Source of the DNA: Ovis canadensis
Lineage: Eukaryota > Chordata > Mammalia > Artiodactyla > Bovidae
NCBI RefSeq assembly: GCF_042477335.2
Contig: NC_091247.1
Location: 230,963,001 to 231,027,000, forward strand
Length of the DNA: 64,000 nucleotides
Reading direction: 5' to 3'
This document shows, piece by piece, positions 3,370-20,300 of this stretch. Made by a program: the position numbers and the translations under genes. Position 1 is the stretch's first letter, and the number at the start of each line of letters is the position of its first letter. The notes beneath the pieces are model-generated. The model did no database searches. It was not told the origin of the DNA and saw only the letters and a list, made by a program, of their open reading frames with translations.

Positions 3370-3849
3370 CTGTGTCCAGGCGCTTTCCCGGGGACCCCTC
3401 CTCCACCTCAGAGTCGCCGCAGGTGCTTCGCGACCTTTTTCTTGGCTGCAGAAGAGTCTCCAACCTCGGAAGGACTACAGACAAAAAGGTTTTGGTCCCT
3501 AGCTGAGGAGAAGTTGGCTGGGTTTCAGTGTTCTCGGCAGACTTTGGGGGGCTTACACTTTTCGGTTTGCAGAAGAGAACAGAGGTGCGTCTGTTCACAT
3601 CGCTCGATGGCTCCGCCCCCGGCGCAGCGCCACTACGGGCGAGGGTGGGCTCTGGAGAGTGTCCGCTTAGCAGCGCGCTCTGAGTGCAAGTGCTATGTGA
3701 CTCATTACCAAATGTGACTCTTTTGGGCAGTTTACTCTGCTCTGGGTGGAGTTCTACTGGGTTGAGGGTTGGTGGTTCTGAGTTAGGCTCCGAGTTTGAA
3801 GGAAGAGGTAATGCATCTGATGGTTCAAGTTTAGGGGGAGATTTATCTC
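3370..3849 (-). CDS. BRD1: BRD1 exon 8, with long and short forms from two acceptors
   Basis: The distal acceptor is TTTTTTCAG (AG at 3851-3850) and starts the long exon at 3849, giving [18 protein letters not shown] and so on. A proximal acceptor, GTCTGTAG (AG at 3476-3475), starts a short exon at 3474. Both enter in phase 1 and share the donor GACACAG|GTAAAC (GT at 3369-3368). The difference is 375 bp (125 codons), all open on my translation. The shared part encodes [20 protein letters not shown] and an acidic tail. Human BRD1 has the equivalent alternative insert of about 131 residues. Confidence 0.93.
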
Positions 3850-6800: not shown

Positions 6801-9800
6801 AAGCCGCCCCACTGCTGGGGCGATGGTAACACCAACCTGGTGGCCCGTTCTCCCCCAAGAAGGGACATGCACGCCCTCACCCCGAGGGGCAGTGGGGGCA
6901 GCAGGGGTGGCTGGCAGGAGGGGCCGTCCTATACCCTGAGAACCCCGAGGGCACAGGGGGGCACCGTCGGGGAGCCCAGCGAGACCTGGCTGCCGAAGGC
7001 CCCTGGGAGAAGGGCTGCTTGGAACCAAACCCACAGGCAGGGCCACTGCGCTGATGGCAGGGAGGCCCCGGACTCTACAGTCCAAGCGCGAGTCCCGCCC
7101 CCGAGCAGGGACGCTCCAGAGCCTGCAGCTGGCACACAGCCACCCAGGCAGAGGGCACCACGAGGGGCCCCGCCCCACCGCACGGCCACCCTCTCCGAGC
7201 AGAGAAAGCTTGGGGATCCAGGTCCTACCCGCTGCTCCTCAGGCAGCTGGACTGCAGGACACCACCGGACCAGAGCAGTCCACCCGCTCACGGGCACCAC
7301 AGAGAGAGACGTAGCATCACTGCCAGGACACGGCAGGGCCCCAAGGCCAGCACACACCTGCAGAGACCTCGGTCCTTTTCAAAGGGTGAGCAGTAGAGCA
7401 GCTTTCTATGTCCTTTCGTTAACCACTTTGTTGTTCTTATTTGGACAAAGTCGTAAAAATTCAGAAAGACCACACACAGCTGCTAAGAGCCGTGCAGGGA
7501 GGGAGCCTGACCCCACCGCCTGTGCTGCTGCCTGAAACGCCCAACTCTCAAGTGAGGAGAGGAGGGCAGGAGGGGGCAACGCTCCACCCGCCCAAAGGGC
7601 ACCTGAAGGGCACCTCCAGGAGCCCAGGCTGAGCCTGGGCTGTCCCCAGGAAGCGGCCCCCACGCGCGTCCCACCCACAGGGGCACGGGGCCACTGGAGG
7701 GCCCTGCTGCCCTGGGAGAGGAGCTGAGACGGTCCTCCCCACGCGCAGCCTCGCCGGGTTACTGGGCACCTGCTGGGAGACTGCTCCACGTTCCCGCCCC
7801 AGCACACGGCCACGCCTCCTGGCACACCAGCCCCTCACTCTCTGACCGCTCTGCAAGGCTGTGGACAACCTGAACCGTGCTCGAGAAACAAACCTCATTT
7901 CACCCCCAACGTTTTTAAGCGGCCAAATGCGGCGCAGACAGGACTACCCCAGCCTCAGCCCGGAGCGTCTCCGAGCGCTTACCTTCCTCCGCGGCCTCCT
8001 GCCCCCGCGGAGCACCGTCCTCTTCCGAGCCTGCAGTACCTGACTCCGCGGCCGGGGGCTGGCTGTGCTGCTGGCTCAGCTTGCTCCGCAGGATGGCAAT
8101 CTCCTTCTTCAGCAGCTTGGCCCGTTTGCTCCGTGACCCACTGGACTTCATGGCACACGTGAGGTCCAGCATGTCCAGTAGCTCCCTCAGCTGCTCCTCC
8201 AGGACCATGTGGGCCCTGTTGGCCGGGTTCAGCAACCTGTCCACTGGAGGCAGAGACACGGCCATCAGTCGCCACATGGGCGCCGCCAACCTGAGACCAC
8301 CTCCCCAGGGACCCCAGGGCCCTACCCTCTCATGGCGCCTACCGGCTGGGCACCACTGGCAGACACAGGGGCCGGGGCCGCGCCCAGGGCCGCTGAGCCC
8401 TCCCACCAAGACCAGGCGCCCAGGCGAAGAAAGGCCGGAAAGAGGTCCAGACTCGCCAGGGGCACCAGCTCGGGGCCACGTGCGTCTGAGCCTGAGTCTC
8501 AGTGCCAGGTTGTTATGTGGCTTTTTTTAAACTGGGCTGCAAAGTTCACAGGTAATTTGGAGTCTGGGATATATTTATAAGAAAAATCCTCAACAAAATA
8601 AATTTCAGCCAAACACCAACACGTATGAAGTAAACTACCGTGAATCAGTGAGAAGCGGCTAAGAGACTAAGCGAGTCTACAGTCTCCTGCAAACAGAACC
8701 GGGACAAAAGCCACGGCAGCGCGGCCATCAGACACGGAGAAGCCTCTGGCCCCACAGGCAAACCTCTCCCTAGAGCACCCGCCTCATCATGAGAAGAGCA
8801 AGACGCCAGTACAGGGAACCAAGTAAAAATGCGTCCTAACAGAATGCCACAGACAGGAGGGTCCACAGCAAGAAATCCCATCTCATCCGAAAGCCCCTCA
8901 GGCAGAAGACACTACAGGGAGGGGCCTGGGGCTGCCCAAGCACAGAGGGGACACAGAGGGGGCGTACTTCTCGCCCCAGTCCATCCTTCGTGAAAACCTG
9001 GGCGCAGAAATGGACTCACGGTGCCCCGCCTGGCCACTTCCCGCGAGGCTGGCACCCCTTCCCGACCCAGAGCGCTCGGGTGGGGAGGAGGCAGGCCTGC
9101 TTCCGGGGGCCTGGGAGAGCCAGCAGACACGGCGCCCCTCCCGAGGCCGCCTCGTGAGGTGGGGCGGGGGGACCAGCACGGAGGGCCTGCACCTGTTCCC
9201 TGATCCCTCGTGAGGGGCTTCCTCTGCCACAGGACGTCCTCACAGGCCCCCAGGCCCTCCTGCACACACAGCCCGAGTGACACTGCTCCCTGGTCTGTAT
9301 CAGGGCGGCCTGCTGTCCCACTCGGGCCCACGGCTCACGTGCCTCTCAAGTGGGCACCTGAAACGTGGATGCTCTCAGCAAAGATGCGCTGAGGGTAAGA
9401 TCCACGCTACATGGCACACAGAGGAGAAGCCATTGAGAGCAACCCTGCCGTTCCTGGGTCACTTTCACATTAAAACCACAATAATCAGGTGTACCAGGTT
9501 AAAGATAGGATGCGAACACAAGTCCTCACGGGGCTCCTAGGAAACCTCAAGCCAGCATGCAGCTCGCATCCCGCCTCCTGAGCCTGCACTTCAGCATCAG
9601 GGAAAGTGCCCCAGCACCTGCTCCTGGACGGCCGTGCTCACCCTCGTCCCAGGAGAAAGGCCGCCGAGGGGCCGGGGGCGGCCGCTCGGGCAGGTGCATC
9701 CCCGAGGCCTCGTCGAAGCCGACGCTGTCCGCCTGGCGCCGGGCCTGCCTGAGCACCACGCCGCCCTGGTCACGCAGCCGCACAGCGGCCCGGTAGAACA

Positions 9801-12800
9801 CTGTGTCCTTCGCGTTGTACTTCATGCAGTTGTCCACGATGAGGTCAAAGTCCTCTTCCAGCTCCCTGAGAGTCCGGTACCCCTGTGCTTCTAGCCGCTT
9901 CCGCATTGTGGCAAAGTCCATGGGGCGTTTGATGTGATCCAGATAATCCGGGACCTGGGTTCAGGGAACAAAGCAACCGTTTACAGACACAACCAGAGTC
10001 ACACACTCCACGCAACCAGGACACCTGTCGTGTACATACATACACACGCAGGCACACTCCATGCTCACGCAGTACCGCAGGGCAGCCCAGCTCCTCTGGC
10101 CGGACACGCACACACTGGGAGGGGTCCTCCACATCCCCTGGGCCACTGCAGACCCGAGGGAGGCCGGCACAGGAGGCGAGGACACCTACCTCCTTGAGGC
10201 TCACTGGCTGGGCAAATATGCGGGCCGGGTCCTTCTCCTGCAGCTGGTCCAGCACCGAGCGCAGCAGCACGGTGAGCGGGGTCAGGCGCAGCTCCAAGGC
10301 CATCTGCTCCACCTTCACCTGGGGGCCAGTGCACCAGGGCTCAGCGCCCGAGGGGATGCGCCCTCTGAGGAGCCACCTCCCACCTCGAGGGTGCGGCACC
10401 ATCCAGGGGCCCATGGAGGTCCACATTAAAGGCACAAGCATACAGTATCACCCTCCTGCTCACACCTCCTGGGACCCACTGAACACCACACCCCACCCCA
10501 GCCAGTCTACTTCACGGCAGAGATCGGTGTCAGCCCCTAAAGCCACCAGCACCCCTCACCAGAGAGGACCACTCAGAGGAAGCCAGGGCAAGGACTGTGG
10601 GCCTAGCACAAGCTGCCCCTTCCCCGGGACGCCCCGCCCCTTCCCCGGGACGCCCCGCCCCTTCCCCGGGACGCCCCGCCCCTTCCCCAGGACGCCCCGC
10701 CCCTTCCCCAGGACGCCCCGCCCCTTCCCCAGGACGCCCCGCCCCTTCCCCAGGACGCCCCGCCCCTTCCCCAGGACGCCCCGCCCCTTCCCCAGGACGC
10801 CCCGCCCCTTCCCCAGGACGCCCCGCCCCTTCCCCAGGACGCCCCGCCCCTTCCCCAGGACGCCCCGCCCCTTCCCCAGGACGCCCCGCCCCTTCCCCAG
10901 GACGCCCCGCCCCTTCCCCAGGACGCCCCGCCCCTTCCCCAGGACGCCCCGCCCCTTCCCCAGGACGCCCCGCCCCCGCAGCCTCACCTGCTCCCGCTTG
11001 AGCTTCTCGCGCTTGCGCAGAAGCTCGATGAGCAGGCGGGCGCGCTCCAAGTCGTGCCGAAGCCGCTGCCAGTACTTGAGCTTCTCTTTGGCAGCTTGAA
11101 TCTCCTCATCGTTCTCTCTCTGAGAAAAAGAATGGAGTCGGCCTTTTCCCCCACACAGACACACACGGGTAAGGCTCCGCGGCTCAGCCCCTCGCCTCCT
11201 CCCCGGGAAGCCTCCTCCCAGGACAAGCTCGCCCGTCGCTGGTTCATCTCCAGGCCAGCGCTGTGGCGGGGGTGGGGCCAGGGCGCAGAGCGCTTCCGCC
11301 GGCACCCCACCGCCAATGCCTGCACCCCCGGCCTCACTCCCGTCCCTCCCCGAGCTCTGCCCAGGACCTGGGGTCCTCAGAGCCTCCTGGAAGGGCTCAG
11401 GGCTGCCCGCCCCCAGCCCCAGGGGCCTACCCTCCCACCGCTGCACGTGCGGGCCTCTCAGTGCACCTGAAGGCTGTCCCACCACAGCTCCTCCCACACC
11501 CCCCACTACGGCTCCTGTCGGGAGTCTGGGGAGTCTGGGGCCCTCTCGGTCAAGGCCACTTGGAAGCCGAGTCCAACCTCACGCATGAGGCTCCCCTTCC
11601 CTGCCGCCCCGCCGCCGCGGCCGCCACCGCCATGGGCCTGCTCCGGCTGCGGCAGCGCAGGCACCGCTTTCCAGAACGCTCCGCACTCAGCCTCCTCTGC
11701 CCCTTGAGGCCCACCTCCATCCAGAGCGAGCTGTAACAGGGCAGCCATCTGGCTGCGTCCGCGGCCCCCAACCCCTATCCCAGTGCAAACCCCGAACCCT
11801 GGCAGCAAGGAGCACTCTGCTCTGAGAGGATCGACCCTGACTAAGGCTGGCGCTGCGTTCCAGGACCTCAGGGTCTGAAGGCAAAAATCCCGTGGCCAGA
11901 GTTGCAAGGCCCCTCTCGCTCTACTGGGGAAGGCAGCAGATGGGCCCACCCAGGAGGCTGGACGCAGGGAAGGAGCCAGGCCTGAGTCTCCCCTCCACCA
12001 GCATCCTCCAGCTCTACCGGATTCCAATCACCGGCTTGTTTTTACGTTATTTAAAATTCTCAGACATCAAACAGGAGTTAACAGTAACATCAGCTGTATA
12101 AACAAGGCCAGTAAATACATTAAACAGTGGGCTCAGAAAACCAAATTTCCCGAGAGCATCTGAAATCATCTCTTCCGTCAGTTTGAAACAGACACTGAAA
12201 ATACCAGCTCGAAGGACGTTCAGCTGGTGGCCCATGAGACACAGGAGAGCAGTTAAGCCCCAGAAACCGCTGGCGCCCTCCTGCTGTGCCTGCCGCTGGC
12301 TGCAGGAGCACAGGCCCTGCCTCCGACACAGTGCCCCCACCAAGCAGGAACCTGCGGGGAGGACCTGGCCAAGCCCCACACCTTTTGTGTACAGAAGGGC
12401 CTGCCTTTCTGACTCTACAAGAGCAGTCTAATTCCTACGTGAAACCAATCCGGGAAGGCTCCATACACTGGGGGAGTGCTGCAGTCATTTCCGGTTTCAG
12501 TCAGCTATCAAGAGAGCTCTGAGGACACTGTCTGCAACCCAGCCATCGTTCCCCCGTGGAAGGAGGGGAGCACACCCAGTGCCTAGAAGCGAGGCAGACA
12601 GAACCCCCCCACCCCACAAGGTCAACACCAACTGGGCCAGACCAGCACCCCAGCTGGGGACAGAGCAGGCCAGCTCTGCAGCGTGAGGACCCCACACACC
12701 AGGCCTACTCCCAGGGCACGAGCAAGGGTGGGAGACCCTGAGGAACAGCCATCTCACCCTGCCAAGCCGCCAGCAGCAGTGGTGTAGACAGCAAGAGGCC

Positions 12801-15800
12801 CTGCCCCAGCTCAGCAGGACAACCAGCTGTCCGAAAGCCCCTGGAAAGCGACAGGGGATGCCCTCCCACCACAGGGCGCGTCAAGGGGAGCTGGCGGACG
12901 TGAGCACTCAAGGGTGGGTGGGACAGAAGCCACAACCCCCCAGCCCAGCACATGCCCGCAGGCCCCCAGCCTGCTCTGCAGGATGGAACCACCATGGGCA
13001 CCAACAGAGGCCAGGGCTCCACGGGCCCAGCACAGACCACGGAGGGGCCAGACCACTGAGGAGGCAGGGGACAGGAGTACCCAGCAACCGAAGCGCCTCA
13101 TCCCATCCAGCCCAGCTCATCCCGTCTGTCTGTCCGTCCCTGACTGGAAGGTCTGCTGTGAGAGAAGGGCTGCACCTAGCCTCTCCCAGGGCCCAGCTCA
13201 GGGCAGACGCCCAGACACACAGACTAGTGCGTCAGGTTAAACACTAAAATCAAGCATTTTTAAAGTTTCAAAAATCATCAGAATCACACCAAGTCTTCAA
13301 CAGTCCATGTGGAACATGAACGGGTTGCCCCCAAAGCCAACCTCCGCTAGGACAGGGTGGGAAGCAAGAGGTAGTGCAGCCCTCCCACCTACCCTGCGAT
13401 GGGGCGCTCCCAGCCATTCCAGGCTGGCGGGGGCAGGCAGACCCCCACCCGTGGCCCTGCCCACACGGGCTGCACCGCTGAGCCCACTACCATCAAGTCA
13501 GGACTGGCCCCTGGTCAAGCCCAGCTGCACCTCAGTCTGAATCTCTGTGGTTCCTCCCAGTTCCTTCAGCCAAGAGAAAACTGACCCTTCTGTTTCCTGT
13601 GCGTGAATTCTCCTATCATTACAAATTTCCCTCATGTGTGGCAGGACGTGAGAACACGACTGCTCTCAAACCCACTGCTGGGAGCGTGTGCTCCCGAGGT
13701 GCGGGCAGGCCCCTCACGCACCCCAACCTCAGCCCAGGTCTTGCTCCCCACGCAACTCCCCCCGCCAGCCCAGCCCCAGAACACACTCCCAGCTCTGCAC
13801 TCTGCACCTCCCACTGCTCCGCCGTCACCAGGCTGAGGACAAAGGCCCCCAGCTGGCCTCCCTGCTCCCATCTCGAGATATCCTCTGCCTAACTCGCTAC
13901 CCCCAAGGCCCAACACCCTCTCCGAGCACCCAAAGGCCCTGCGGGCTCTGCCCTGCCCCCCTTCCTGGAGCTCCTGAGGCAGCACTAAGCCAGCCAGCCA
14001 GCCTCAGTTCCCACGGTTCCAACCCTGCAGCCCCGTGGACACTCCCCCAGCCCACAGCCAGCCCTGCAGCCCACAGGCCCAGGTCCTGACACAGCCCTGA
14101 CGGAGACAGAACCCCGTATCCAGCGGGGAGGAGAGGGAGTACAGGGCCTCCCCAAGAAAGGCCCAGGAGGGGCGGAAGGTTCAGGACGAGCATCCCCGCC
14201 CCAGGGTGGGCAGCAAGACTGGACTTGGCCGCCAGCAGCCCTGACGCTGCACGGAGCGGGCAGGAGGCAGGGAGCCAGGCACCCGGCCCCGTCAGCCCCT
14301 CTGTACATGCCCGAGGTGGCTCCGGCCTAGCGCGTGGGGCTCGGCCTCCCCAGCGGGGCGGGGTTGGTGAGCCTGCACAGCTGTGCCTGCAGGCACCAGG
14401 ACCGCCGGGCGGGGGACCTGACCCGCCCGGCATCCCAGGAGCGGCCCCACAGCCATGTGCTGCCTCCTTCCCTGGAGACAGAGGAGGGTCAGGGGCACGG
14501 CCCACCCCACAGTCACCCAGAAACGTCACACTCCTCTGGATTTCAAAAAGCATTAGAAAGATATCCAAGCTTCAGACATCTAAGCTTCTCTATTTAAACG
14601 CACATTCACGTGTGCGCGATGCTGAATGACCTGCCGTCAGCACCGCAAGCCTGAGGCGGCGAAGAGGCAGAGCTCCGTCCAGGCCGGGCAGCAGACAGCC
14701 CGGACTCGCACAGGAACCGCGGGAAGAAGGCGCAGAGCGGGGAAGCAGCGGCTCTCAGGACAACGCGATGGAACGGGCGGCCGCCATCGCCCGCCGTGGG
14801 ACCAGGGACCCGAGCCTCCAGCCAGGCAGGCCTGCCCCGACCAGAACGCAGCAGGGGGTTCCCCACGCCAGGGAAGCCCCTGCCAGCCCAGGGGCACCGC
14901 GTCCCCTGCACCCCTTGGGCATCATGGCTCATGGAGCCTTCCGGACAACGGGCTGGGCGGCCCACAAATGGCGACGGGAACCGGCAGAGGCAGCCCTGCT
15001 GCACGCGGGCGACGGGAAGAGCAGACTCCACTCAGCCCTGAAGCCCGCCCTCAGCTCCAGCAGTGGCCAAGCCCCGTTTGTCTGTGACAGCTCACAAAGA
15101 CGGCTTCTCCCTTCCTAAACCCACCTTTCAGAAAAGCACTCTGAACGTCAGCCAGCCTGTGAACCTGCATCAGCTACTGAGAGGAAGGCACGCGTCCCTC
15201 CCGGCCGCCCTTCCTGCGCACGGGTCCCTGACCTGAGGCCCCGGCACACCCACCCCCTGCTCAGCTGGCAGAGGCTCCCCCGTGCACCCCCCAGCGGGCA
15301 GGGCCAGCAAACGACAGCACACCACGGGGCCGAGGGGCACCTCAGACGGAGGCTCCGCCTGCCGCCCCGGCCAAACGCCGCCTGCCGCCCCGGCGGGCCA
15401 CGTACCTGCTGCGAGCTTCTGTGGGACTGCAGGCTGGACTGGAGTCTGCGCAGCAGCGGGGCTCCGTTCCTGGACAGCCTCTTGAGGAGCCAGTAGCTGT
15501 GGGCGCGCTCGACAAACTGCTTCTTCCGCTGAATGGCCACCTGATTCGCAATCCTATTTAATCTAGAACACGGAAAAGCTCAGGGTTTAGCTATGAAGCA
15601 GGACATAGACACTTTATCACGGAAACTAGAAATGAAGTCAACAGACCATATGCGTCCCCCTGGCTACACCCCGCCCCCTCACCACCACCACCTGCCTCCC
15701 GGCTCCGCCTGCCCGCGGGCCGCATTCCCGCCACCACCACTCAGGTCACGCGTCCAGGGACCCCAGATGTCACCTGCTCTGAGCCCTCAGCTCACGCATC

Positions 15801-17274
15801 CAGGGACCCTGGGTGTCCCCCGCTCCGAGCCCTCAGCTCACGCGTCCAGGGACCCTGGGTGTCCCCTGCTCCGAGCCCTCAGCTCACGCGTCCAGGGACC
15901 CTGGGTGTCCCCCGCTCCGAGCCCTCAGCTCACGCGTCCAGGGACCCTGGGTGTCCCCCGCTCCGAGCCCTCAGCTCACGCGTCCAAGGACTCCAGGTGT
16001 CCCCCCCCCCCGAGCCCTCAGGTCACGCGTCCAGGGACCCCGGGTGTCCCCCGCCCCGAGCTGCGCAGGCTCACACCAGCCTCCCCCAGGTGAGAGCAGG
16101 CCTGCAGGATGGCCCCTCTCAAGGGGCCCCAGAGCCCACAAGACAAAAAGCAATGGGACAACTGGAGGCAGAAGCTGCTGAGGGCGGGGTCAGCGCGCCA
16201 CAAAAGTGCGCACAAGCGCCCCCAGGCCTCGTGGCAAGGCCATCGTTTCAGAGACTGTAAAACTCGACAGATTCTAAGAACGCACAAGGGGACGCAAAGG
16301 GCTTCACACCCCCCAGGCCGGCCTCTGGCCCCTGCCTTCGCCCCTCCTGGGAACCACGCCTCCTGAAGACAACAAATGCAGGCTGCGGACCAAACCCCAA
16401 TGGAACAGGCGGCTTCCTTTCAGAACACCGGACATCAACATTTCAGGGCGGAAATTAAGGAATTTTAAAAGGACATCTTCCAAGGAGTGTGATTCCTAAA
16501 TCATACGTAACTGTACTGACATCCTCGGCTCCGCTGTGTCCAAACCCACAATGCTCCTTCTCATTAAGGCAGTTGCTACAGCTCGAGCCTCGGGGCCAAA
16601 GGCCACGTGCTGCTCAGGGTAGCCCTGCCCAGGGCCTCTTCTGGCGGCCGAGGAACCCAGCGAGGGGCAGCTCCACCCAGGCACGCAGCCCGGGCAGACA
16701 GCGAGCCCCACCCAGCGCGTCCACAGGCCCGCCCAGTCACACGGTGCTGGCTCCAGCGGAAGGCGCTGGGGACCCCAGACCCCCCTCTGCAGAGGGGCTG
16801 TGTCTGTCCTGGGCACCTAGCCGGCGCCCTTCTGCTGAGGTCTGCCCTCACCCCGCGACTGCCACCTGACTCAGGGCCAGCAAAGAGCAGGCAGCTTAAC
16901 ACACGGAGCGCACGCAGACATGCGCTCTCACACACGCGCAGTTCCGGCAACAGTGAAGGGCGGCACCGGTAGAAGGTGGACTCGGCGTGCGACACTGGCT
17001 GAGCCGCCAGGAAGGACACCAGGCAGCACACAAAAAGCTCAGCAAGCCCAGCGCCGTGCTCGCTGTGAAGAGCAGGGAAGAGACGAATGGGAGCAGGGAG
17101 CAACGGACAGTGAGCCTCGTGCCTTTAAAGCAGCACCATTCACAGCAGCCAAGACAGAGAGACAACCTAAACGCCCGCCGCCGGGAACGGCAGAGAGGAC
17201 GCGGGGTGTTGAGAGAGACAGCGCTGCTCAGCCACGAGAAAGGGAAGGATGGCGCAGTAGCAACAGCGATGGGC

Positions 17275-17305
<31 letters not shown>

Positions 17306-20300
17306 GGGAGAGGGGGAGGGAGGGAGGGAGGGAGGGAGGGAGAGGAGGGAGGGAGGGAGGGAGGGAGGGGGGAGGGAGGGAGGGAGGGAGGGGGGAGGGA
17401 GGGAGGGAGGGAGGGGGGAGGGAGAGGGGGGAGGGAGGGAGGGAGAGGGGGAGGGAGAGAGGGGGGAGGGAGGGGGGATGGGAGGGAGGGGGGAGGGAGG
17501 GGGGATGGGAGGGGGGGAGGGAGGGAGGGGGGAGGGGGGGAGGGAGGGAGGGGGGAGGGAGGGAGGGAATACTACGCAGCCATCAGCAGGAAATGGCGGC
17601 ACAGCAGCAGCACGGGGCCTGGAGGCTGCCGCGCTGAGCGAGCTGAATCAAAGATGAACACTGCGTCACTCGTGTGCAGTCTGAACGACACAGACCAACT
17701 CATCCACAAAACAGAGAGACTGGCAGGCTTGGCTCAGGGACCAGACTTAGAGTGACCAGAGGGGGCAGGGGTGGGGAGAGATGAGCTAGGAGTTTGGGGT
17801 TAACGTGTAGAGGACTGGACGTAAAGCAGATAAATAACGAGTGGCTGCTGTGCAGCACAGGGAATCGTACTCAGTGCCCCATAATAAACCATAACGGGAG
17901 AGAATGTGAAACCAGCGTAACTGTATGTCACTCACTCTGCAGCGCATCAGAAACTTGCCACTGTTCTGTTGCTAAGTCACGTCCAACTCTCTGCAACCCC
18001 ATGGACTGGCTGTAGCAAGCCAGGCTTCCCTGTCCTTCACTGTCTCCCGGCGTTTGCTCAAACTCACGTCCACTGAGTCGGTGATGCCATCCAACCATCT
18101 CGTCCTCTGTCGCCCCCTTCTCCTCCTGCCCCCAATCTTTCCCAGCATCAGGGTCTTTTCCAAGAGTCAGCTCTTCGCATCAGGCGGCCAAAGTACTGGA
18201 GTTTCAGCACGAGTCCTTCCAATGAAGCAGAAACTAACACTTTCTAAAGCAATCAACCAACTCTCAATTCAAAAAAAAGAAGAGTATCATGAAGACCGAG
18301 ATGCCCAACAAGCCTGTAGAAAAATGTACCTGGCCAAATCCGAATTACGAAAAGAAAGAAGCTGAAGTACATTCCTTTAACCATCACCCTAGAAACTGAA
18401 CGGGCCGTTTAAAAGTTTCCTTACCACCCCCAAAAGAAATAAAAGGAACCCATTTTTCAGAGGAGGTTCACTATCAGAAAAGGAAATCAAGCCAACCCAG
18501 CCCTGCGCTGACTATGGCGAGGCGAGGACACGCATCCAGCCCTCTGGGTGAGTCCCGACCAGGCGGGAGAGTGGGGCCAGGCCAGACGCCACGCGCACAG
18601 ACACACCCCAGGGCCCGGGGTCCATGGCCGAGCGCAGGAGGCCAGTGGTCTAGAGAGCGAAGTCCCAGAAGGAGCACTCACACCCGGAGACCAGACTGCG
18701 GCCCCCCCGACAAAAGACGAGAAACGGGGCCCTGGCGCCCTGGAACTCACTCCTGGCTCACTGGGAGGTGCCCCTCGCGAGCAGCCCCCCCAGGACCCCC
18801 GCCAGGCCTGCGCTCACCACACAGGTGGGTACACCAACCGCGAAGGGAGACGGCCACAAGACACGCTCGAGTGGCAGGAAGCGCCCCGTGACGATGCCAG
18901 TGAGGAGGGCAGAAAGGGGCACGCAGGCCACCTCCAAACCGACTCCAAAGTCCAAGAACCTGACGGACGACCGGGGGCGCATAGGAGGCAGGCAGGCACA
19001 GCGCGCAGGCTGGCCGCACAGACGCCCCCGGGGCTGGGTGGCTGTGGGTCTCTGGGGGAGGAGGTGCTCCGTGGACGAAGCGGGCAAATGGCTGCTCGGA
19101 CACCAGCACGTGAGGGACGGCATGGCTGCGAAGCCTCGCCTCGGGGCCATCCTGACCCGGGAGGCCAGCAGTCTGCGCCCCAGAGGTCCCGTCAGTGCCA
19201 AGGCCGCGGGGCCGGGGGCAGGGGTGGAGGGATAGCTGCAAAGCTTTCAGAAGAAAACCTCGAGGCCCTCAGGGAATGAACACTCAAGTGAGACGTGACA
19301 AACACAAGCCATGAAACAGAGCAAAAACGCGCCCTGGAAGCAGGAGGCGATCCCCGGGAAGGGGGCCGAGGCGGGGCTGCGCACTCCCGCCCGCCAAACC
19401 CACTCAGGCCGGCGGGAAAGCACAGGAAACCCACGGAGGGAACGTCCGCCCAAACCGTCACTGCACACGTGACGTCCACAGAGAACCTAAGGGAGCCTGC
19501 CACGCGCGGCACCAGCGTAGAGACCCTGCGTCCACACGGCGCCCAAACGCGCCCATTTGAGAGAACGCTATTTCTCATACTAAGTTTTCCATGGACATTT
19601 TTATGGAGAAAACCGTGCACTTTCAGCAAACACTGGAGAGGTGATAGTGAGCAAAAGGTGGGCCTTGCCCAGGCCAGGGTGAAGGCTGGCGTGGAGCCGG
19701 ACTTCCAGGAGGAGACGGACATCTCGGGGACGGGGGGGTCCACAGAGCGGTCTCCGGGTCAGGGGTGCAGGAACAGTCAGTGGCGGCCCTGCCCGCCAGC
19801 AGGAAAGACAGGTGTGTGGGCTGAGGACCACAGGGTCAGACGCCGCGTCTTCAGAGCAGACAGACACACGCCGTCCAGACACACCCACTCCAGGGCCGCA
19901 GGGCACGGCCGGGCTCTGAAGCGAGCTGTTAGCTGCGCTGCCAAGGCCCCGGGGGACGTCACGGGACTGGGGTGTGCTTCCGAGTGACCCAAAGGACGAG
20001 GCGGGTGAGGGGGCTGGCCCAGCGCTCCCGAAGCTGGGGTGCGGGGGTAGCGCTTCCGGCCTCACAAACGTCCAGCTTTGACAAGGGCTTCTAAAGACGT
20101 CAAGAGCAGGGACGCCGCGGGGAAGACGTGCAGTGAGCACAGCAAATGGCCAGCCTCCCACAGGCCAGACCAGGGCCCCAGGGAACCAGGGGGAGGCCCG
20201 GGGAACCAGGGCACGGAGACCGACCCTGCCGGCCAGGGCCTGCGGCCACAGGCTGCACTCAAGGCCTGCCCACGCCCACGGCAGGAGAGCAGCCACCCCG

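Follow-up and report, generated by a model that had tools for sequence, protein, structure and literature searches.

Within the chromatin reader gene BRD1 of Ovis canadensis, a G-rich tandem repeat begins almost directly after the donor of exon 4, upstream of the exons that encode the bromodomain. The question raised by this locus is whether such an array alters the transcripts of the gene, by retention of the intron, by skipping of the following exon or by another route, or whether it is tolerated there. The window, by which we mean the whole 64,000-nt stretch of DNA analysed (NC_091247.1, positions 230,963,001 to 231,027,000), is close to one end of contig C3, which is 232.4 Mb long, and the array is 1.38 Mb from that end, which we take to be the telomere. 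A ruminant SINE motif was found ten times in the window at up to three mismatches and not once in 100 shuffles.

The assignment of the gene to BRD1, made in a first-pass annotation of the window, was borne out by protein comparisons. BRD1 is on the minus strand. Exon 2 matched the EPL1 and PHD families and exon 6 the bromodomain family of Pfam, while exons 5 and 6 matched consecutive residues of human BRD1 bromodomain chains in the PDB (2–42 and 43–134 of 3rcw), which fixes the exon 5-exon 6 junction. Exon 4 searched alone matched no PDB chain and no Pfam family; its number assumes that the 5′UTR exon is exon 1. Coordinates of the features are collected in the table.

Table. Features of the BRD1 exon 4–exon 6 region, in window coordinates
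Feature	Position	Strand	Description
BRD1 exon 4	10988..11119	-	132 nt, phase 0 at both ends, ends CAG/GTGAGG
BRD1 intron 4	10319..10987	-	669 nt, GT...AG; exon 5 identified by PDB match
Minisatellite	10615..10976	-	period 21, 17.2 copies, 99% match (TRF)
Variant units (three, distal, T>C)	10620..10682	-	each T>C makes a match to a kappa-B-like consensus
Read-through frame from exon 4 donor	10556..10987	-	open for 143 codons, then TGA; not considered a gene
BRD1 exon 5	10190..10318	-	129 nt, 43 codons; N-terminal part of bromodomain construct; 3rcw match
BRD1 exon 6	9642..9954	-	remainder of bromodomain; 9643-9954 searched

TRF and a unit-by-unit comparison confirmed the earlier description of about 17 units of 21 bp that fill some 360 of the 669 bp of intron 4 and lie 12 bp past the donor. 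The unit, GGGGCGGGGCGTCCTGGGGAA, is present in 17 full copies and one partial copy, together 362 nt. The first unit starts at 10976, which leaves 11 intron nucleotides between the donor boundary (10988/10987) and the array. With its head-to-tail units the array falls under the definition of a minisatellite (units of about 10–100 bp). It is far above chance expectation, since with up to three mismatches allowed the unit is present 17 times in the window and never in 100 shuffles. The GC content is 82%, with a GC skew of 0.52 on the BRD1 sense strand; the array contains 17 copies of the GC box GGGGCGGGGC, and its observed/expected CpG ratio is 0.83, compared to 0.24 in the part of intron 4 that follows the array on its 3′ side. 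The 14 full units nearer to the exon 4 donor are identical, whereas the three at the distal end share a single T>C substitution and are identical to each other, which suggests recent homogenisation. The array is probably a VNTR, as the near-identity of its units in the one assembly examined would suggest.

Reading through the exon 4 donor stays in frame for 143 codons, up to a TGA at 10558-10556, as the first-pass annotation had stated. The reason given there, that 21 is a multiple of 3, did not hold. TAA, TAG and TGA are absent from the unit in every sense frame; when the unit was shuffled 20,000 times, a given frame stayed free of stops in 91% of cases and all three frames did so in 73%, and composition-matched units with a period of 19, 20, 22 or 23 left a given frame open in 75–79% (5,000 trials each). 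Thus, the period is not why the frame is open. The frame is no more open than expected for such a repeat, and the in-frame read-through, true as it is, is uninformative and implies no coding role. A protein-coding extension was rejected, since openness follows from composition and the read-through frame matched no Pfam family. The annotation had also predicted a truncated protein with PHD fingers and no bromodomain. A product of the retained intron would indeed lack the bromodomain; however, exon 5 would end 366 nt downstream of its stop codon. By the usual rule a stop so far upstream of an exon junction triggers nonsense-mediated decay, so decay would be expected rather than a truncated protein.

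The proposal that an array of G-runs with G-quadruplex (G4) potential sits just past the donor was, in turn, upheld by the motif count. The array contains 52 G-runs, each of at least GGGG, separated by gaps of 1, 2 or 6 only. Canonical G4 motifs (at least four runs of three or more G, loops of 1–7) occur in intron 4 as 13 non-overlapping copies, G-rich on the sense strand, that is, in the non-template orientation. ViennaRNA in G4 mode predicts a G4 in the array, the folding energies being unreliable for a G4 array of such length. The G4Hunter score of the array is about 2.0, a value reached by 0.14% of 350-bp windows. The best-scoring segment elsewhere, a GGGA-type array at 17306-17568 that is G-rich opposite to the BRD1 sense, is slightly higher at 2.09.

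The splice sites around the array were scored with a donor position weight matrix. The exon 4 donor, with 7.31 of 8.63, ranked top of the seven BRD1 donors in the window (others 3.55 to 7.19); by plain consensus matches it has 7 of 9 positions and the exon 3 donor 8 of 9. The exon 5 donor was fifth of seven, at 5.03. Among six acceptors scored, that of exon 8 being placed two bases off, the exon 5 acceptor had the lowest pyrimidine fraction (0.65) and the fewest T (three). The repeat as a ladder of additional donors was rejected: the sole GT of the unit has a donor score of −11.7. Masking of the exon 4 donor by base pairing with the array was likewise unsupported, as predicted pairing barely shifts with unit number; the predicted unpaired probability of the donor was 0.11–0.12 without and 0.08–0.12 with G4 mode for 0, 1, 2, 4, 8 and 17 units.

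When the seven genic arrays of the window were placed at random against the seven BRD1 donors, an array came within 12 nt of a donor without overlapping it in 4.8% of trials, and did so on the intron side in 2.5%. A donor was overlapped in 30% of trials, and such placements are the ones that selection would remove. Adjacency to the donor is mildly unusual, judged by one post hoc count in one window.

The genome (2.97 Gb, 42 contigs) was searched with the array, which yielded at least 28 matches at no fewer than 27 separate loci. Apart from BRD1, the matches listed make up 26 loci, of which 20 are no more than 5 Mb from a contig end, where chance would place at most 14%; the 26 include a pair of copies of a single array, and the matches are not independent. 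GC-rich minisatellites of subtelomeric regions are a recognised class. The BRD1 array resembles them in its high GC content, strand skew, homogenised units, position near a contig end and the presence of similar arrays near other ends, and its distance from the C3 end is within the few megabases that the class implies. It differs in being directly against a coding exon.

Tandem arrays were detected by TRF at 26 of the 27 loci, L028 having none. Locus L014, close to the beginning of a different contig, is a second copy of L013, and merging the two left 25 arrays, BRD1 and 24 others. Upstream sequence was read for each, and three of the 24 follow an apparent exon donor on the G-rich strand, at 2, 16 and 56 nt; the exon-like open frames were judged by eye and counted after the cases had been seen. 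At L005 (C9:24.9 Mb) a 362-nt intron (1443-1804) separates two TSP_1 exons, and the array (1507-1802, 296 nt) starts 2 nt after the donor. The gene is probably a member of the ADGRB family. L006 (C22:66.03 Mb; 1329-1839) has about 22 units of 21 bp, 16 nt after the apparent donor of a coiled-coil-like exon whose frame resembles JAKMIP. At L016 the array follows an apparent donor by 56 nt, with an upstream frame of 40 codons. Pfam supports L005 only, with TSP_1 both upstream and downstream; the apparent exons of L006 and L016 matched no Pfam family. A reverse layout was observed at L019 (C10:100.08 Mb), where the C-rich strand comes directly before what look like an acceptor and the last coding exon of a gene.

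Three donors within 60 nt correspond to a Poisson probability of 8e-5 at the donor density of this window and 8e-3 if donors were five times denser, the count being post hoc. A donor-like site (score of at least 3) within 60 nt was found at 6 of 25 G-sense 5′ edges and at 6 of 25 G-sense 3′ edges, with no asymmetry, and at one 5′ and one 3′ edge in the C-sense of the 25 arrays. The recurrence of GC-box arrays beside donors is suggestive and should be taken as a lead, not as established. A broader proposal would be that the 5′ splice sites of short introns in subtelomeric genes of ruminants are places where G-rich GC-box minisatellites arise and expand again and again, directly downstream of the site and with the RNA carrying the G-rich strand. 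Short GC-rich introns would then generate splice-tuning VNTRs at their 5′ ends, and one trait under such tuning would be whether the BRD1 bromodomain is included. We put this forward tentatively and consider it doubtful at present. If donor arrays do recur, short-read livestock studies would miss a class of splice-affecting variants; the ABCA7 VNTR, at first poorly assessed by conventional sequencing, is a precedent.

That VNTR, in ABCA7 intron 18, is the closest published analogue found. Its length raises skipping of exon 19, which removes 44 residues in frame (PMC5954066). In both genes a tandem array (of a 25-bp unit in ABCA7) adjoins an exon donor, and the next exon is in frame and encodes 44 residues in ABCA7 and 43 in BRD1. 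In contrast to ABCA7, where the unit holds the donor GT and a cryptic donor lies one unit downstream, the BRD1 array starts 11 nt from the donor and its unit is without a usable one. The ABCA7 region is described in that paper as C-rich, and the BRD1 array is G-rich in the sense strand; splicing effects were measured in ABCA7, while any in BRD1 would be a prediction from sequence.

For G4s in general, PMC9065059 reports that those near splice sites promoted exon inclusion in a minigene, that non-template G4s are enriched just after donors, mostly at weak splice sites, and that the effect in short introns is lost or reversed against GC-matched long introns. The BRD1 motifs match that description in strand, in their place directly past a donor and in the short intron. 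They differ from it in being 13 consecutive motifs made by a minisatellite beside a high-scoring donor. The C9orf72 repeat, whose GGGGCC RNA was shown to form G-quadruplexes and to bind hnRNP H (PMC5050020), is likewise an intronic GC-rich repeat with GGGGC runs, but it is a disease expansion of a hexanucleotide, flanked by two first exons that are putatively non-coding, and not beside a coding donor. Isoforms that alter a bromodomain are known in the BRD1 paralogue BRPF1, where a and b differ inside the domain and the longer is said not to bind histone peptides (PMC7288741), with no array involved.

Intron retention, the consequence proposed in the first-pass annotation, would require the G4 array to slow splicing, so that the transcript with intron 4 is detained or decayed or encodes a PHD-only form of BRD1 that ends in a GRGVLGK tail. 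The 143-codon open frame and the pyrimidine-poor exon 5 acceptor are compatible with this, and C9orf72 GGGGCC RNA, whose main binding protein is hnRNP H, sequesters that factor (PMC5050020). Intron retention from microsatellite expansions is the subject of a reference title listed in PMC6651174, and intronic reads at mouse Brd1 in ES cells have been ascribed to antisense transcripts (PMC8499053). However, an open frame is expected for most such repeats, the exon 4 donor scores high and the stop lies 366 nt before the exon 5 end. G-runs and G4s at such sites are mostly reported as promoters of splicing and exon inclusion (PMC12062376, PMC9065059), and the retention event at ABCA7 intron 18 was independent of VNTR length (PMC5954066). 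In the light of these sources the proposed retention is unsupported, and we regard it as improbable.

A longer array might instead, as in ABCA7, increase skipping of exon 5. The loss would keep the frame and remove 43 residues at the start of the bromodomain, breaking it while the PHD fingers and the C-terminus are kept. The array is at a donor as in ABCA7, where exon 19 skipping grows with length; exon 5 itself, 129 nt long, has the fifth of seven donors and the poorest acceptor tract, and G4s are enriched at exons skipped after depolarisation (PMC9065059). Set against this, the ABCA7 authors invoke SRp30c, YB-1 and Nova-1 motifs in a C-rich region rather than G-runs, and the ABCA7 unit includes the donor and its alleles reach 10.7 kb, compared to 362 bp in BRD1 (PMC5954066). 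Skipping of this kind is unlikely, if a little less so than the other alternatives; should array length alter isoforms at all, the analogy would make in-frame loss of exon 5 somewhat likelier than retention. An effect at the DNA level could also be imagined, the 17 GC boxes and the CpGs forming an intragenic Sp1-type CpG island that serves as an enhancer or alternative promoter. The copies of GGGGCGGGGC and the raised CpG ratio are what such an element would display, but a recently homogenised array looks alike whether or not it is bound or unmethylated, and we consider this role improbable.

We favour, with a probability of roughly 0.6, the reading that the array is a recently homogenised, GC-box, G4-forming subtelomeric minisatellite, probably a VNTR, that is tolerated or mildly promotes splicing. 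Its sequence, position and orientation, its G4 potential by motif and its subtelomeric company are established directly. The array may have expanded in the opening part of a short intron, BRD1 being a GC-rich gene that lies 1.4 Mb from the contig end, and it may persist there as sense G-runs after a donor would be harmless or perhaps helpful to U1 and to factors of the hnRNP F/H type. In TP53 intron 6 minigenes the donor was impaired once downstream intronic G-runs had been deleted, and G-runs in such a position are classed as enhancers; a G-run-free replacement of TP53 intron 3 gave only 1.3% exon skipping, so G-runs are not always needed (PMC12062376). The array probably changes splicing little, its copy number is probably polymorphic, and its effect on exon 4-exon 5 joining is likely to be benign or mildly enhancing. 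Against the favoured reading, 52 clustered G-runs are far beyond the numbers tested in minigenes, and G4 enrichment is strongest at weak sites, whereas the exon 4 donor scores strong.

Among the papers listed for BRD1 with minisatellite, VNTR or intron retention, no report of the intron 4 array was seen; two papers on cattle variants do not mention BRD1 in their main text, nor does a human minisatellite survey. In non-mammalian collections the repeat unit had no match in viral contigs, and the BRD1 exon 4 pattern had none in viral or in bacterial and archaeal genome contigs, with no phage match. Taken singly, the array is a subtelomeric minisatellite of the ordinary sort whose location is striking. 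The comparisons above suggest that it belongs to a known type, the G4-rich minisatellite next to a donor, and is possibly part of a wider pattern. If the array did tune exon 5, acetyl-lysine reading by BRD1 would be tuned with it.

Two minor observations concern BRD1 outside intron 4. Exon 8, at 3370-3849 of the window, carries an apparent extra segment of a long isoform. An internal TAG before VLPRLETLL could presumably be the short-isoform acceptor. Splice variants BRD1-S and BRD1-L are named in PMC4855718. Another tandem array in the gene, seven copies of a 46-bp unit at 15740-16061, belongs to intron 3 and is followed by the exon 3 acceptor after about 180 nt.
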